In this document: positions 2,356 through 9,421 of the stretch, in pieces
Position numbering within the stretch: position 1 is the first letter of the stretch
Layout of the letters: each line of letters opens with the position of its first letter
Source of the DNA: an uncultured Pseudomonadales bacterium
GTDB lineage: Bacteria > Pseudomonadota > Gammaproteobacteria > Pseudomonadales > Azotimanducaceae
NCBI GenBank assembly: GCA_958296405.1
Contig: OY282519.1
Location: forward strand, 2,278,132-2,342,131
DNA length: 64,000 bases
Reading direction: 5' to 3'
Program-made: the position numbers and the translations under genes
Notes under the pieces: generated by a model
Told to the model about the DNA's origin: nothing
What the model saw: the letters and a program-made list of their open reading frames with translations, nothing else
Databases searched by the model: none

Positions 2356-3759
2356 TTAACCGAGCGTTGGGTGGCTCGTAAAGCCGGCTTCCCGCTCTAA
2401 TGCGCTGCCCATGGCGATGAGCCGGGCTTCGCCCAAGCGCGGGCCGATGAGTTGGCAGGCGCGCGGCACGCCATCCGCGTCCAGGCTCAGCGGCAGGGTG
2501 ATGGTGGGATGCCCGGAGTAGTCGAACGGGGCGGTGAACTGGATGAACGGCGCTTCGCCATCCGCCTGCGGCTGGTTCGGCCGATTCGCCGGCGGCGGTG
2601 GCATGGGCATGCACGGAGCGATGAACGCGCTCACGTTCTCCAAGGCGTCATCGAGTGCGCCGCGAAACCGGATGCGGGCGCGTTCAAGCCGCGCATAGTC
2701 CGTCGCGCTGGCCTTGCTGCCCAATTCCAAGAGGCCGTTCAGTTGCGCGCCGTAATCACTCGCGCGCGCCGGCCAAGTTGCCGCGTGCGCCAACGCGCAG
2801 TCTGCGCCGCAGGTGATGGCCCAGCCGGCCACCAAGTCATCACAGCGCGGCATTTGCGCCTCGACGATGCTGGCGCCGCGCGCCAGCAGCATGTCGAGCG
2901 CGTCGCGCACCACCTGCACCACGGCCGGCGCCACGCCGTCGTTGACGTAGCGCCAGTCCACGCCGACGGAGAGGCCGTCCAATCGTTCCGTCAACGCCGC
3001 CGCGTAGTTCGGCACCGGCGCATGGAGGGATGTTGGATCGCGGGCATCCCGGCCAGCTAAAGCCTGCAGCAGCCGCGCGGCGTCCTCCACGGTGCGCGCC
3101 ATCGGGCCGATGTGGTCGAGGGATTCCGAGAGCGGAAACGCCCCGTGGCGGCTGACGCGCCCGTAAGTGGGCTTGATGCCGACCAATCCGCAGCAGGCGG
3201 ATGGAAAGCGGATGCTGCCGCCGGTGTCAGACCCGAGTGCGCCATAGGCCATGCCGGCGGCCACGGCCACGCCGGAACCCGATGAGGAAACGCCGGTCCA
3301 GCGCTCTGCGGACCACGGGTTCACCGGCAGCGCCACATCGGGATGATGCTGCGAGTAGGCACCCTCCGTGAGCTTCACCTTGCCGACGATGACGGCGCCC
3401 GCCTCCTTGAGCTTCGTCACCACAAAGGCGTCTTCCGGCGGGCGCCAGTCCGCCAGCACGCGGGTGCCGCAGCTGGTGGCGATGCCTTGCGTCCACAGCA
3501 GGTCTTTCAAGGCGATGGGCACGCCATGCAAGGCGCCGAGGGGCTCGCCATTGGCGCGGCGCTGGTCGAGGGCAGCGGCGGTTTGCATCGCCTCTTCGCC
3601 CAGCACGCGAACGTAGGCCTTGAGGCGGGGTTCAAGCGCCTCGATGCGGGCGAGCGTCGCCGCCGCGACATGCGTGGCAGACAACTCGCCGCTCTTGATG
3701 CGCCGGCAGAGGTCTGCCAGCGAAAGGTAGTGCAGCGGCGCCACGGCGGTGGCCGTCAC
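2356..3759 (-). CDS. amidase signature family hydrolase
   Basis: A 467-residue cytosolic Ser-cisSer-Lys amidase related to GatA, AtzF and aliphatic or aryl amidases. The catalytic Lys is K85 (PIALKDLL). The signature spans about residues 156-200, with TGVSSSGSG supplying the cis-serine and GSDTGGSIRFPS the nucleophile S182. It has the usual length for stand-alone amidases. There are no GatB/GatC neighbours, so it is not a tRNA amidotransferase subunit. The start is GTG, overlapping the TGA of the FAD-oxidase gene as GTGA, so it is the third gene of an operon with the NHLP-like protein and the FAD oxidase. Substrate not predictable. Confidence 0.88.
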   Translation of the reverse strand: MTATAVAPLHYLSLADLCRRIKSGELSATHVAAATLARIEALEPRLKAYVRVLGEEAMQTAAALDQRRANGEPLGALHGVPIALKDLLWTQGIATSCGTRVLADWRPPEDAFVVTKLKEAGAVIVGKVKLTEGAYSQHHPDVALPVNPWSAERWTGVSSSGSGVAVAAGMAYGALGSDTGGSIRFPSACCGLVGIKPTYGRVSRHGAFPLSESLDHIGPMARTVEDAARLLQALAGRDARDPTSLHAPVPNYAAALTERLDGLSVGVDWRYVNDGVAPAVVQVVRDALDMLLARGASIVEAQMPRCDDLVAGWAITCGADCALAHAATWPARASDYGAQLNGLLELGSKASATDYARLERARIRFRGALDDALENVSAFIAPCMPMPPPPANRPNQPQADGEAPFIQFTAPFDYSGHPTITLPLSLDADGVPRACQLIGPRLGEARLIAMGSALEREAGFTSHPTLG

Positions 3760-5173: not shown

Positions 5174-5380
5174 TCACTCCTTATCTGGTGGCAGCACTAG
5201 ATGCGTCGTCATCGCCCCGTCTTCGTGGATCGTGATCGCAAGGCCCTTGGGCAAGGAGACGCCGAGGGCATCCTTGATCGCGGCCTTTGGGTCTTCCATG
5301 AGCCGGGCGCGGAACTCGTCATCGATGACTGCCTTGTCGATGACGGCCGCGCGCAGTTCGTCGAAGGCCTGCTGGTTCAT
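5174..5380 (-). CDS. NHLP (nitrile-hydratase-like) leader-type small protein
   Basis: A 68-residue protein with a strong AAGGAGG ribosome-binding site. The segments EFRARLMEDPKAAIKDALGV and ITIHED...THLVLPP match the NHLP/TOMM leader fold, derived from the nitrile hydratase alpha N-terminus and used as a recognition domain by RiPP enzymes. It stops right after the conserved HLVLPP block with only DKE following, so there is no double-Gly site and no core peptide. It is first in the operon with the FAD oxidase and amidase, its TGA lying only 9 bp before the FAD-oxidase start. Stand-alone leader-like proteins of this type exist, but their role is unclear. Confidence 0.75.
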   Translation of the reverse strand: MNQQAFDELRAAVIDKAVIDDEFRARLMEDPKAAIKDALGVSLPKGLAITIHEDGAMTTHLVLPPDKE

Positions 5381-5741
5381 GGTTGCCTCCTTGCCGGCAG
5401 GGGGAAGAGCGACCGCTCGGAGCGAGCAACCTTATGCTTGGAGGGTCGCACATGCAACGTGGGCGGCGGGCCAGCACTCTACTTGCGCTCACGGGGACAG
5501 GCGCCTAGGCCAAGGAGGTGGCACTTGGGAGAAGGCACGCCCGTGGGTCTCCCCACTTTGCTGCAAGGGGTGGTTTGCGTGCGCCGCCAAGCGCCGAACC
5601 ACGAGCAGACTCTTCCCCGAACGCCGCCCCGGCGCGACGCCGCAGATGCAGCGCCACTTGGCGCTCCGCTTCACGCCACTGTTCGATCCTCGCGGCAGCG
5701 GTTCCTGCCGCATCCCCTTCTGAACATGTGCGAATCGTTGG

Positions 5742-5754
5742 CAGTGTATCGGTT
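5742..5754 (-). repeat. island motif AACCGATACACTG, copy 1 (inverted)
   Basis: Reads AACCGATACACTG on the minus strand. It forms an inverted pair with the copy at 5792-5804 (12 of 13 bases), 37 bp apart, just upstream of the cyclase gene. It could be an operator half-site or a divergent promoter element. Confidence 0.5.
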
Positions 5755-5784
5755 CAGCTTCAACCGCATGAACGACAAGAGGGC

Positions 5785-5804
5785 AAAGTCAAACCGATGC
5801 ACTG
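5785..5804 (+). promoter_or_regulatory. island motif AAAGTCAAACCGATRCACTG, copy 2
   Basis: Reads AAAGTCAAACCGATGCACTG, ending 25 bp before the cyclase ATG at 5830. The same 20-mer, with one difference, recurs before the sulfotransferase gene at 8346-8365. The CATAAT hexamer downstream at 5815 would serve as a -10. A shared regulatory site for the two biosynthetic genes is the simplest reading. Confidence 0.5.
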
Positions 5805-5829
5805 CCCGATCGTTCATAATCTGCCCCCG

Positions 5830-7695
5830 ATGAACACGATCTGCGGGCTTGTTCGGGAAGCGCCGGGCGAGACGGTGAGCGTGTCCCCGATCTTGGCGGC
5901 GCTCGCTGGCTACGGGGCATGCGCCGACGAGTGGGCGGCCGGCCGCGTCGCCCTCGGTTGCCGTCGGGCGCCTGCGGGCGAGGGCGGCGAACCGGCGCTG
6001 TGCTTCCTCGAACCCGGCCTCGCGGTGGCTGCGGACGCCCGGCTCGACGACCGCGACGCGCTGCGGGACGCGCTCCGCGTTCCCCGCGCCGAACGATCTG
6101 GGCTCGCCGACGGCGACCTCATCCTCCGGGCCTATGCGCGCTGGGGCCGGGATTGCCCGAACCACCTGCTCGGCGACTACGCCTTCGCCGTGTGGGACGC
6201 GAGGAAGCGCACGCTCTTCTGCGCTCGGGACCACATCGGTGCCAGACCCTTCTATTACGCCTTTCCTCCGGGCGGCTTCGTCTTCGCCGGCGCGGTGGAA
6301 GGCGTCCTCGCCGCGCCGGGCGTCTCCGGCGAGCTGGACGAGGAGTCGGTGGCGGAGCATCTGACGGGCATCGCCCTGCTGACGACCACCCGCACGTTCT
6401 TCAAGGCGGTGCGCAAGCTGCCGCCGGGCCATGCGCTCACCGTGTACTGCGGTTCCCTCCGGCAAGGGGCTTCCTCCTCGCGCTCCCCGGCCCGGCCGGA
6501 ACGGTACTGGTGCCCGGAACAGGTGCCGCGGGCGCGGGCGGCCTCCGACGATGCGTACGCGGAGGAGTTCTTGGAGCTCTGCACGCGGGCGGTGGAGGAC
6601 CGGTTGCGTGGTCCCGGCCCCGTGGGCGCGCATCTGAGCGGCGGCCTGGATTCGTCGGGCGTCGCGGTGCTCGCGGCCCGGGGGCTGCGCCGCCGGGGGC
6701 GCCCGCCGCCGCCCGCGTTCAGTTGGCTGCCGGCGCTGGACGGCGAGGCGCCGGTGCCGGCGCATGCGAAGGAGTACGCGCTCATCGACGCGGTGTGCGC
6801 CCAGGAAGGCTTGCAGGTGTCGCACTGCGCGCTGAGCCCCGGCGACGTGCTCGCCGTGCTGCGTCGCGACGGTGCCTTGCCCGGGGTGCATGTCCACATG
6901 AACGAGGAAGCGGTGCAGCGCTGCGCGGCGGCGTCGGGGGTGCGGGTGCTGCTGTCGGGCTGGGGCGGGGACGAGGGCGCGTCGTTCAACGGCCGCGGCC
7001 ATCTCCAGCATCTGCTGCTGAGCGGCCGCTGGCGGAGGTTGGCGGCCGAATGCCGGGGCCGGGGCATGGGCCCGCGGCGGTTCCTGCTCGACTGCGTCCT
7101 CCCGCTCGCGTTTCCCGGCCTGATGCTCGACCTTCGGAGGCTGCAGGGGGGCAAGACGTTGCGCTCCCGGCGGGGCGTGATCGACGCGACGTTCCGGCGG
7201 CGGCTGAAGCCGCGGGCGGAGCCGCCGCTCCGCTATCTCGGCGTGCGGCACACCCAGTCGTGGCTGTTGCAGAGCGCGCATCTGAGCGCGCGCATGGAGG
7301 GGTGGGCGGCGAGCGGGGTGCGCCGGGGCATCGAGTACCGCTATCCGCTGCTGGACCGGCGGGTGCTGGAGTTCGCCCTGGGCCTGCCGCCGGAACAGTA
7401 CCGGCGGGGGCGGTGGAGCCGGTGGCTGATGCGCCACGCGCTGCGCGCGGTGCTGCCGCCGGAGGTCTGCCGGCACCTGAGCAAGGATGATCCGGCCCGG
7501 TACGAGCCGTTGCGCGAGGTTCTCGCCCAGGCGCTGCCGGCCGTCGGGGACGATCTTGCCGCCCTGGCGACGCCGCCGTCGCGGGCGCGCTACGTGGACG
7601 TGGCGCGTCTGCTGGACAGCCTGGATCCGGGCCGGATCCGGGCCGGCCGGCAGAACACTCAACTTTGCAACGCCTTGCAGTTTCTCGATTGGTGA
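5830..7695 (+). CDS. asparagine-synthetase-type cyclase, lasso peptide C-protein-like
   Basis: A 621-residue AsnB-fold protein. Residues 1-200 resemble the glutaminase domain, with GDYAFAVWDARKRTLFCARDHIGARPFYY near 115-143. The start is MNTICGL, so the Cys is at position 5 rather than exposed at position 2, as in lasso cyclases that do not need glutamine hydrolysis. The ATP pyrophosphatase loop LSGGLDSSG is at 269-277, followed by SGWGGDEGASFNGRG and EYRYPLLDRRVLEFALGLP. I chose the ATG at 5830; upstream in-frame starts give unrelated GC-rich sequence. Lasso C proteins adenylate an Asp/Glu side chain to form the macrolactam. The precursor lies convergently just downstream. GC is visibly higher than in the flanks, suggesting transfer. 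Confidence 0.8.
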   Translation: MNTICGLVREAPGETVSVSPILAALAGYGACADEWAAGRVALGCRRAPAGEGGEPALCFLEPGLAVAADARLDDRDALRDALRVPRAERSGLADGDLILRAYARWGRDCPNHLLGDYAFAVWDARKRTLFCARDHIGARPFYYAFPPGGFVFAGAVEGVLAAPGVSGELDEESVAEHLTGIALLTTTRTFFKAVRKLPPGHALTVYCGSLRQGASSSRSPARPERYWCPEQVPRARAASDDAYAEEFLELCTRAVEDRLRGPGPVGAHLSGGLDSSGVAVLAARGLRRRGRPPPPAFSWLPALDGEAPVPAHAKEYALIDAVCAQEGLQVSHCALSPGDVLAVLRRDGALPGVHVHMNEEAVQRCAAASGVRVLLSGWGGDEGASFNGRGHLQHLLLSGRWRRLAAECRGRGMGPRRFLLDCVLPLAFPGLMLDLRRLQGGKTLRSRRGVIDATFRRRLKPRAEPPLRYLGVRHTQSWLLQSAHLSARMEGWAASGVRRGIEYRYPLLDRRVLEFALGLPPEQYRRGRWSRWLMRHALRAVLPPEVCRHLSKDDPARYEPLREVLAQALPAVGDDLAALATPPSRARYVDVARLLDSLDPGRIRAGRQNTQLCNALQFLDW

Positions 7696-7815
7696 GCGGT
7701 TGCGGTACGCCGCTGCCGTTCGGCGAGGCGCCCGGCCAGATCAGCGGATTCCGATCGCGCGCTCTGGGCCGCGGCCGGTCGGAGAGCCGTGTCTCGACCT
7801 GCGGCGAGGGAAGGA

Positions 7816-8013
7816 TCAGCTTGTCGGGGCGTAGGCGCCAAAAGTATTCGTCTCCGCGTATGCTGGATCGGAGCCGGATTGGGTATCGTCAACCGTCTCT
7901 CCGATGACCCGGACGGTCGGCTTGGCCCACGGCTTCTTGGGTGCGCCGGTCAGCGGGGGGGGGGGGGGGGGGATGGTGCTGTCCCCTGACGGGTTGTGAT
8001 GGCTTTGACTCAT
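7816..8013 (-). CDS. RiPP precursor peptide, lasso-like leader and core
   Basis: A 65-residue peptide with GGAG 8 nt before its ATG. The N-terminus is Ser/His-rich with six prolines at 15-20 encoded by a homopolymer. Next comes KKPWAKPTVRVIG (26-38), resembling the YxxPxLxxxG recognition segment of lasso leaders (W replacing Y). T44 sits where lasso leaders keep a penultimate Thr. Cutting after Q45 gives a 20-residue core SGSDPAYAETNTFGAYAPTS, with E54 as core position 9. Cutting after S46 puts Gly first and E54 at position 8. Both suit a macrolactam. It is convergent with the cyclase gene, not in operon order. The leader motif and the adjacent cyclase support the call; the product is unproven. 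Confidence 0.7.
   Translation of the reverse strand: MSQSHHNPSGDSTIPPPPPPLTGAPKKPWAKPTVRVIGETVDDTQSGSDPAYAETNTFGAYAPTS
7955..7972. repeat. G18 homopolymer inside the precursor leader gene
   Basis: Eighteen consecutive G on the plus strand (C18 in the coding sense) encode the polyproline stretch of the precursor leader. Tracts of this length are prone to slipped-strand length change, which would shift the core out of frame. It could also hide a sequencing or assembly length error. Confidence 0.95.
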
Positions 8014-8046
8014 GTTTCGGGCTCCATTTCTACAGGAAACGCTCAA

Positions 8047-8066
8047 TATCTGTTGAATAACAGATA
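8047..8066. promoter_or_regulatory. perfect palindrome upstream of precursor gene
   Basis: TATCTGTT and AACAGATA form 8-bp arms around GAAT, 34-53 nt upstream of the precursor ATG in a locally AT-rich stretch. On the minus strand TTAAAC, 17 nt, then TATCTG is a weak promoter candidate overlapping the palindrome. An operator is likely. A hairpin in the 5' leader RNA is the alternative. Confidence 0.5.
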
Positions 8067-8103
8067 AAAGGAGCGTTGCACATGTTTAAGTCGCGGGCGG
8101 CGG

Positions 8104-8235
8104 TCATGGCTGTAGCAGTCGCAACGCGCCGAACACGAGTACGGTGGTCAGCGTCGCGTTCGCGATCACGACTCCGATCGCGACTCCGATCGCCACCTTG
8201 AGCATGTCGGCCTTGAGGTCGGCGATGGCGGTCAT
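8104..8235 (-). CDS. 43-residue single-span membrane peptide
   Basis: Starts MTAIADLKADMLKVAIG after a GGGAG ribosome-binding site 8 nt away; the longer in-frame start lacks one. A short amphipathic ADLKADMLK head precedes a hydrophobic span (about 14-41: VAIGVAIGVVIANATLTTVLVFGALRLL). The layout recalls short coiled-coil plus TM proteins such as XhlA-like or DUF1640 tails, without firm homology. It lies between precursor and sulfotransferase, in the precursor's orientation with an 90-bp gap. Within the island it could be an accessory or self-protection factor, which is speculation from position only. Confidence 0.5.
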   Translation of the reverse strand: MTAIADLKADMLKVAIGVAIGVVIANATLTTVLVFGALRLLQP

Positions 8236-8281
8236 TGCGCGGTCTCCCTGATTTGAGAAGGGTAATGCCGGGAGATGCGTT

Positions 8282-8295
8282 GTCAAGGGCTTGAC
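8282..8295. promoter_or_regulatory. inverted repeat GTCAAG-gg-CTTGAC
   Basis: Perfect 6-bp arms with a 2-bp centre, in the divergent region between the small membrane peptide and the sulfotransferase. A compact operator-like palindrome; regulator unknown. Confidence 0.35.
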
Positions 8296-8317
8296 GAATT
8301 ACGGAGTGGTTGGGGCT

Positions 8318-8331
8318 GGCGGTCTACCGCC
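8318..8331. promoter_or_regulatory. inverted repeat GGCGGT-ct-ACCGCC
   Basis: Perfect 6-bp arms with a 2-bp centre, 15 bp upstream of the island motif copy at 8346. Possible operator or hairpin. Confidence 0.35.
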
Positions 8332-8345
8332 GTGTTCGTGCGGGA

Positions 8346-8365
8346 AAAGTCAAACCGATACACTG
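8346..8365 (+). promoter_or_regulatory. island motif AAAGTCAAACCGATRCACTG, copy 3
   Basis: Reads AAAGTCAAACCGATACACTG, 19 of 20 identical to the site before the cyclase gene, ending 63 bp before the sulfotransferase ATG. On the minus strand it contains TTGACT, a -35-like hexamer that could serve the small membrane peptide gene. The direction of use is undecided. Confidence 0.5.
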
Positions 8366-8428
8366 GCTCAAGATCGGGCCGCCCCGCCCGCGAGGACAGT
8401 GCGCCATGAGGCGGTCGAAGGAGGCCCG

Positions 8429-9283
8429 ATGAACCACGTCTACGGCGCCGGCCGCGACCTGGAGCGCACGATCACCACCCACCTGTTCGCGATCTCCCCG
8501 AACAGCAGCGGCTCCACCTTCCTGCAGCACGCCCTCGCCACCAGCCGGGCGACCTGGAACCTGCCGCGCGAAGGACAGGCCGTCCACGGCTTCGCGGGAC
8601 CCGCCACCTGGCGGCGCGTCCCGCTGCCCGGACCGACGGTTCCCCGCTGGATCTGGGCCGCCGAGCAACGCTGGCTCGATGCCTTGACGGACGAGGGCGC
8701 CTGCGACTGGCGCCGCACCCGCGAGGCGTGGTACTTCCAGGCATACGCCCGCGACCCCGCCGCAACGGTGTTCACCACCAAATCCCCGCCGTTCCTGCTC
8801 AACGTCGGCGCGCTGGCGCGCCACTTCCGCAATGCCAGGTTCCTGTTCGTGGTGCGCAACCCCTACGCGGTCTGCGAGAGCATCTGCCGGGCCTGCGCGA
8901 GCCCCACGGCCCGGGCCGGGATCCCGGCCCGCCACCTGCCCGAGGCCGCTGCGATCCACGTCGCCACCTGCCTGGCCTGGCAGCGCCGCAACGTCGAGGC
9001 GCACCGCGAGCGCGGGGTCTTCTTCACCTACGAGACGATGTGCGCGGAGCCCGAGCGGGTGGCGCACATGATCCGGGCGCTGGTCCCCGCGCTCGACGAC
9101 CTGAACCTGCGCCGGCGCCTGGCGGTGAAGGGGTACGACGAGATGCTCACCAACATGAACGCCCGGCAGATCGCGCGCCTCGACGCTGACCAGTTCGCGG
9201 CCTTCAACCGGGTGTTCCGGCGGCATCGGGACGTGCTCGACCACTTCGGCTACGACATCGTGGACGGAGGGGCGCAGGGGTAA
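8429..9283 (+). CDS. PAPS-dependent sulfotransferase, island tailoring enzyme
   Basis: A 284-residue protein starting MNHVYGAGRD after a GAAGGAGG ribosome-binding site. The 5'-phosphosulfate loop is SPNSSGSTFLQHAL (23-36). The 3'-phosphate segment is RFLFVVRNPYAVCES (137-151), with R143 the expected PAPS ligand. Both fit the P-loop-like sulfotransferase fold at usual length. It shares a 20-bp upstream motif with the cyclase gene and has the same high GC, so it is probably part of the same biosynthetic system. A plausible acceptor is a Ser, Thr or Tyr hydroxyl of the precursor-derived peptide, which has several. That acceptor is inference. Confidence 0.8.
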   Translation: MNHVYGAGRDLERTITTHLFAISPNSSGSTFLQHALATSRATWNLPREGQAVHGFAGPATWRRVPLPGPTVPRWIWAAEQRWLDALTDEGACDWRRTREAWYFQAYARDPAATVFTTKSPPFLLNVGALARHFRNARFLFVVRNPYAVCESICRACASPTARAGIPARHLPEAAAIHVATCLAWQRRNVEAHRERGVFFTYETMCAEPERVAHMIRALVPALDDLNLRRRLAVKGYDEMLTNMNARQIARLDADQFAAFNRVFRRHRDVLDHFGYDIVDGGAQG

Positions 9284-9354
9284 AGGGAGAGCCATCGACA
9301 GTCCACGAGGTCGGGGCAAATCCAAGGATGGAAGGGAGGAGGATAATGTACGCC

Positions 9355-9400
9355 GACCGGCTTGGCCCACGGCTTTCTGAGTGTGCTGGTCAGAGGGGGG
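9355..9400 (-). pseudogene. degenerate second copy of the precursor leader
   Basis: The minus strand encodes PPLTSTLRKPWAKPV, matching PPLTGAPKKPWAKPT of the intact precursor. The DNA at 9351-9400 agrees with 7911-7960 at 40 of 50 positions without gaps. Homology stops after KPV; the frame continues without core features and runs antisense into the sulfotransferase 3' end. No Met precedes it, and it abuts the stop of the dioxygenase gene at 9422. It is a truncated duplicate or recombination scar marking the right edge of the island. Confidence 0.65.
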
Positions 9401-9421
9401 CACCGCAGGTGGCCCCGGCGG

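Follow-up and report, generated by a model that had tools for sequence, protein, structure and literature searches.

A putative lasso peptide island with distant B genes and poly(C)-bearing precursors in an uncultured Pseudomonadales bacterium

The window analysed here is a 64,000-nucleotide stretch (G000:C1:2278132-2342131) from an uncultured Pseudomonadales bacterium whose genome, G000, is a single contig of 3.83 Mb. It carries a gene island that resembles a locus for a lasso peptide, a ribosomally synthesized and posttranslationally modified peptide (RiPP): at 5830–9283 it encodes an AsnB-type cyclase, a 65-aa precursor, and a sulfotransferase (Table 1). A preliminary description, made from the window alone, had recognized these three genes, and the searches bear it out. 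The cyclase matches PF00733 (108 bits, over the cut-off) and GATase_7 (71 bits), and its N-terminus, MNTICG, has a Cys at position 5 that is invariant in six aligned cyclases and none at position 2; the catalytic Cys2 of glutamine-hydrolysing asparagine synthetases is thus absent, as described. The precursor has the KPWAKP leader reported for it and a predicted core that starts at Gly47, and the sulfotransferase scores 56.1 bits with PF13469 (cut-off 27). The small membrane peptide of the same description corresponds to a hydrophobic open reading frame (ORF) of 43 aa, 95% identical over 43 aa to a single place in genome G058 between two cyclase loci (overlapping loci L073/L089), but it matched no Pfam family. 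The GC content said to exceed that of the flanks does so at the cyclase, with 0.74 and 0.72 for the bins of 6–8 kb, but not at the sulfotransferase (0.67). No match to PF13471 (B2, the protease) or PF05402 (B1) was found at E ≤ 1 within the 64-kb window, in line with the absence of B genes noted before.

Table 1. Features of the island, in window coordinates.
Feature	Position	Strand	Basis or remark
Island, present in the window and absent from sister genome G008	5502..9413		flank alignment
Imperfect palindrome with CAGTGYATCGGTTTGACTTT-like ends; G058 island match begins directly after it (5807)	5742..5804		alignment
Lasso-type macrolactam cyclase (C protein), 621 aa, MNTICG N-terminus, LSGGLDSS motif	5830..7695	+	model scores
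Lasso precursor (A), 65 aa	7816..8013	-	leader motif and predicted core
Predicted core GSDPAYAE/TNTFGAYAPTS, from Gly47; predicted G1-E8 macrolactam, tail Tyr at -5, C-terminal Ser	7819..7875	-	predicted
Leader with KKPWAKPTVRVIG motif common to paralogues; KKPWAKP present	7876..8013	-	leader/core border predicted
Poly(C) tract of 18 within the leader, coding Pro15-Pro20, in frame; proposed phase-variation tract	7955..7972	-	sequence
Small hydrophobic ORF (frame 8104-8286), 43 aa from ATG	8104..8235	-	candidate island member
Second copy of the palindrome arm; G058 sulfotransferase match begins directly after it (8368)	8342..8365	+	alignment
Sulfotransferase (Sulfotransfer_3), 284 aa; predicted model nearest to tyrosylprotein sulfotransferases	8429..9283	+	PF13469
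Remnant of a second precursor leader, 43 nt	9358..9400	-	fuller copy at the corresponding place in locus L048

In the genome of a sister species (G008, same genus), 3.9 kb of the window (5502–9413) are replaced by 41 nt, with flanks that are 96% and 91–92% identical, and a shredded copy of the island lies at 807 kb. The trio of cyclase, precursor, and sulfotransferase, which the preliminary description had proposed looking for in other genomes, occurs in G058 at 91% identity (cyclase and precursor) and 98% (sulfotransferase), against 72% for a flank stretch at 11.8–12.9 kb. Judged by these alignments, the island is more than a chance arrangement, and it was very probably mobile, recently inserted, and horizontally acquired. 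A 24-nt repeat (5781 and 8342) was considered as a motif of all islands and rejected, as exact matches occurred in only 3 of 337 scanned loci, all covering the window island, with weaker ones in L082 and L085; the two repeats look more like the ends of a small inserted element. Adjoining the G058 island are two genes that, judged from their translations, may encode a tyrosine recombinase and a MobA/MobL protein.

The preliminary description had also suggested a search of the rest of the genome for PF13471 and PqqD-like genes, and both are present on the same chromosome, at about 826, 839, and 854 kb. The profile search identified a nucleotidyltransferase-B2 fusion (PF14907-PF13471) at 824.8–826.6 kb that scores 77.9 bits with PF13471 and 67.6 bits with NF033537 (cut-off 33), and its Cys and His stretches are retained in the 11 relatives compared. 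It is followed by an ATP-binding cassette (ABC) exporter, the two reading frames overlapping at 826.6 kb. This hub lies approximately 1.45 Mb from the window island and has the only B2 over the model cut-off on the chromosome; three weaker PF13471 matches (≤21.7 bits, cut-off 26) were left uncounted. Candidates for B1 are PqqD genes at 838.6 and 853.9 kb (PF05402, 67.1 and 52.9 bits, cut-off 23.4). The region at 835–841 kb (L008) reads like a second lasso-like cluster, with a divergent cyclase, a B1, two HPr-kinase-like genes, a second-type sulfotransferase, and a 2-oxoglutarate oxygenase, and no adjoining precursor of the KPWxKP family was seen there.

Precursors and cyclases are, by contrast with the single B2, numerous and scattered. 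G000 has 18 related precursors, along with 7 cyclases, spread over nine regions, and 7 of the 18 precursors are more than 10 kb from every one of the 7 full-length cyclases; at 312 kb, for example, three successive precursors stand with a glycosyltransferase and a sulfotransferase and no cyclase. The precursor search model (E ≤ 0.01) was built from 17 G000 precursors, which makes the G000 count circular. The eight further chromosomes (G008, G058, G059, G060, G061, G062, G063, and G064) have 8, 21, 23, 6, 8, 5, 2, and 3 precursors, respectively; 4, 13, 10, 6, 7, 7, 3, and 1 cyclase matches, counts that take in fragments and one divergent type; and 2, 3, 5, 3, 3, 5, 2, and 1 B1 matches (2 in G000). 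B2 proteins over the cut-off number one in each of eight genomes and two in G063. Six of the eight further chromosomes thus repeat the imbalance of many precursors and cyclases (5–23 and 4–13) to one B2. Cyclase neighbourhoods were examined at 45 loci drawn from the best 80 matches, and within 10 kb of the 33 that come from seven OY chromosomes we found a B2 at 4, a sulfotransferase at 27, a GT8 glycosyltransferase at 24, and an HPr-kinase-like gene at 22. Because PF13471 and PqqD genes lie on the same chromosome and the imbalance recurs, we infer with good confidence that the B functions are supplied to the window island in trans, which is one of the options that the preliminary description had offered. 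Every part is found side by side at L080 and L081, which come from OX639965 and a contig with the label Gemmatimonadetes, so a compact arrangement may plausibly have come first.

The dispersed precursor family, which is invisible from the window alone, and the poly(C) tract were absent from the preliminary description. The window core has Gly at position 1 and Glu at ring-closing distance, and its product is predicted to be a lasso with a G1-E8 ring. When the rule of a first-position Gly with Glu or Asp at ring-closing distance was kept strict, 48 of 85 distinct sequences passed (mean of shuffles, 6.6), with predicted rings of G1-E8 in 30 and G1-E9 in 18. In the cores of L258, L264, L278, and L314, a conserved Glu lies ten residues from the SG glycine, the usual ring being 7–9. 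C-termini are also alike: 70 of the 85 sequences end in Ser, 75 have a Tyr in the last 7 residues, and in 50 the last Tyr is at -5. The predicted model of the window sulfotransferase (pLDDT, the predicted local distance difference test, 82) is nearest to tyrosylprotein sulfotransferases (PDB 5wrj, 3ap3, 8w5z), at 14–17% identity and Foldseek TM-scores of only 0.5–0.6, a fold match that reveals no substrate. From this resemblance, Tyr is our preferred site of a putative sulfation, at about an even chance, and the frequent Tyr near the C-terminus is a hint of the same.

The C18 tract of the window precursor is the only C or G run of at least 9 in the window, and 17 of the 18 G000 precursors have a C run of at least 9 near the start. 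Tracts of at least 12 C number 37 in G000, 14 of them in precursors (expected 0.07, p 2e-29). Across the nine genomes, 92 precursor rows were collected and 7 without the motif dropped, leaving 85 (a different set from the 85 distinct sequences above), of which 46 have a run of at least 9. These tracts go with broken frames: with a scorable ATG, 15 of 43 tract precursors are in frame by the best ATG and 19 of 43 by any of the three best starts, versus 32 of 39 without a tract, and by the best Shine-Dalgarno start the counts are 16 of 49 (tract of at least 8) versus 32 of 43, figures that vary with the choice of start. The conservation of the precursor frame in relatives, on which the preliminary description had let its reading depend, therefore holds for the leader-core reading, but the frame from start to core is often broken, as an effect of poly(C). 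Tract length also differs between copies. Three G059 copies that agree over the 150 nt preceding the tract and at least 170 nt following it have C19, C13, and C17, and another pair, matching over the preceding 120 nt and the following 170 nt, has C25 and C33, so that tract-only differences amount to 2, 4, 6, and 8 C's. Look-alike precursors on contigs from other projects have C14, C14, C16, and C14 (L082, L085, L086, L121) or C18, C15, and C11 (L085, L086, L121), with mixed frame. At these four loci the leader that accompanies poly(C) is of another, FPWTPPSIREISL-like kind; the tract therefore also occurs outside precursors of the KPWxKP type.

Contingency loci with poly(C) or poly(G) in Neisseria and Campylobacter have a homopolymer near the start codon whose length varies between copies and turns the frame on or off. 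Here, too, the homopolymer sits where slippage would shift the frame, and its length differs between otherwise identical copies; phase variation of the lasso precursors by poly(C) is, on this sequence pattern, fairly probable. Twin cyclases in G061 that differ by 22 mismatches have a C13 with an open frame (L078 11378) and a C20 with a broken one (L092 11384), so that the cyclase may be switched as well.

Assembled into one pathway, these parts would work as follows. A B1 protein, acting as RiPP recognition element, would bind the window precursor, and the nucleotidyltransferase-B2 fusion would cut its leader; the local cyclase would close the core into a G1-E8 lasso, the local sulfotransferase would sulfate the product, most likely on the tail Tyr, and the ABC transporter encoded beside B2 would export it. 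Slippage in the poly(C) tract near the start codon would move leader and core in and out of frame, and each living cell would therefore make a random subset of the family. We hold this reading as a whole, a mobile island of precursor, cyclase, and sulfotransferase that is served in trans by a B2-exporter hub and belongs to a poly(C)-switched family, to be probable. It might extend, with roughly equal chances for and against, to a phase-variable repertoire across the chromosome, in which tens of lasso precursors, some cyclases, and tailoring islands are spread horizontally, switched individually, and served by one B2-exporter hub, and in which clonal symbionts would show a mixed set of sulfated, phosphorylated, or glycosylated products. 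That the host is a sponge or otherwise marine is a guess prompted by published work.

An asparagine-synthetase-like enzyme of another pathway beside a small ORF that is a chance frame would also have PF00733 and GATase_7 domains, the best PDB sequence match of the cyclase is a hydroxyamidotransferase and the next asparagine synthetase B, and its 317 bits with the lasso cyclase model NF033535 stay below the strict cut-off of 525. That model still scores best among the NCBIfam models (asparagine synthase, 165 bits), Cys2 is missing, the common leader and ring spacing of the precursor family far exceed those of shuffles, and relatives of the cyclase sit in compact clusters with B1, B2, and an exporter; we regard this alternative as highly improbable. 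With the lasso model ahead and a B2 over its cut-off, a different cyclase-dependent RiPP, which the preliminary description had entertained, is unneeded. The same description had considered a decayed cluster, and an island that has lost its B genes and no longer makes its peptide would account for the window without a B gene, the second precursor reduced to a remnant, the shredded copy in G008, and elevated ratios of nonsynonymous to synonymous substitution (dN/dS): 0.51 and 0.67 for the cyclase against its two nearest relatives and 0.67 for the sulfotransferase. The window cyclase and sulfotransferase are intact, however, and the precursor reads in frame from a credible start; all six island-type cyclases of G000 are open, the other five being 56–67% identical to that of the window. 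The closest island (G058, L048) likewise lacks B1, B2, and exporter genes within 10 kb, yet its cyclase and sulfotransferase are intact, and the ratio of one B2 to many cyclases recurs in the six further chromosomes. A dead or dying island is thus unlikely, and an island served in trans is most likely.

A third alternative, itself rather doubtful though less so than decay, accepts the trans-supplied islands and holds that poly(C) is no switch: it would code for polyproline or set the rate of translation, and the differences in frame would be assembly errors. Long homopolymers are a frequent assembly error, which makes the on or off state assigned to any single gene unreliable. Among the precursors retained from G060, G061, and G063 none has a tract (0 of 5, 0 of 7, and 0 of 2), so the pathway does not need one. 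Of the 43 scorable tract precursors, 19 are in frame by one of their three best starts, and in 11 of the 46 some start codon in frame occurs after the tract and before the motif, in one case a GTG whose Shine-Dalgarno match is fair. Against this, an ATG with a good Shine-Dalgarno sequence stands between tract and motif in 0 of 46, and runs of six CCC are unexpected because CCC makes up only 27% of Pro codons in the called genes of the window. Copies alike around the tract differ by even numbers of C's, look-alikes from other projects vary in tract length and frame, and one of the twin G061 cyclases is framed and the other not. Several further results weigh against the trans-served, switched island that we prefer. 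Tracts are concentrated in G000 (17 of 18), G059 (17 of 21), and G058 (8 of 17), 23 of the 37 long G000 tracts lie outside precursors, and what the tract influences might be translation instead of the frame. The strict ring rule is failed by 37 of the 85 distinct sequences, which include a few probably spurious matches and several that fit a 10-residue spacing or another first residue. The imbalance is not found in G063 (2 precursors, 3 cyclase matches, 2 B2) or in G064 (3, 1, and 1, in a compact cluster), and two B2 genes were near misses, that of G008 lying 0.8 kb past the edge of cyclase locus L056 and one of G063 about 9 kb past L068. The B1 candidate reaches 61.8 bits with the lasso-specific model NF033536, below the strict NCBIfam cut-off of 80, and the action of the distant B1 and B2 on the window precursor is putative. 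The dN/dS values, finally, do not bear out firm purifying selection; the island enzymes are intact yet loosely constrained or fast-evolving.

Tailored lasso peptides are already known. According to the relevant passages of PMC8498205, HPr-kinase homologues phosphorylate the C-terminal Ser of known lasso peptides, and lasso systems are known to include nucleotidyltransferase-B2 fusions as well as a sulfotransferase gene. The paeninodin and pseudomycoidin clusters treated in those passages resemble the present system in having a C-terminal-Ser kinase homologue, a nucleotidyltransferase-B2 fusion, and a sulfotransferase beside the core genes; they are single clusters, whereas here the parts are scattered with one B2 per many precursors, and the passages do not mention poly(C) tracts. 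Similarly, the "highly modified lassopeptides" of sponge microbiomes, in the passages of PMC9426513 devoted to them, come from uncultured symbionts whose lasso genes are accompanied by sulfo-, glyco-, and nucleotidyl-transferases, and dispersal, a single B2, and phase variation are not mentioned there.

Other known systems are alike in part. The prochlorosins of marine cyanobacteria are lanthipeptides in which a single processing enzyme acts on many precursors that have a leader in common but hypervariable cores; they share a cyclizing synthetase, whereas here there are several cyclases and a single protease and exporter. The Neisseria and Campylobacter loci are mostly surface genes, whereas here the tract lies in a RiPP precursor and once in a cyclase. 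Among the best-ranked matches in open-licence literature we found no precedent for one B2-exporter site serving scattered precursor and cyclase islands, and among the best-ranked titles and abstracts none for phase-variable natural products or lasso precursors. Genome mining presumes one-cluster lasso pathways and would discard such islands as broken, and out-of-frame precursors would escape gene calling. If true, the switch would be phase variation of a natural product, that is, a contingency-gene system for secreted natural products.

Some neighbouring and dispersed features stand apart from the island. An NHLP-leader-like RiPP precursor of 68 aa at 5174–5380 (minus strand; TIGR03793, 49.3 bits, cut-off 50.9) was considered as a member and rejected, because it is found, 91% conserved, in the flank of the empty G008 site; a 58% relative adjoins a cyclase in L049. 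Of the 23 G000 tracts outside precursors, 20 were inspected, and those at 1166153 and 2866344 (L243, L253) lie in the N-terminal parts of two long proteins whose sequences look like those of Calx-beta repeat surface proteins, which suggests a wider set of putative contingency genes. The genes at 3220–3228 kb of G000 (L047) read like a type III CRISPR effector module.

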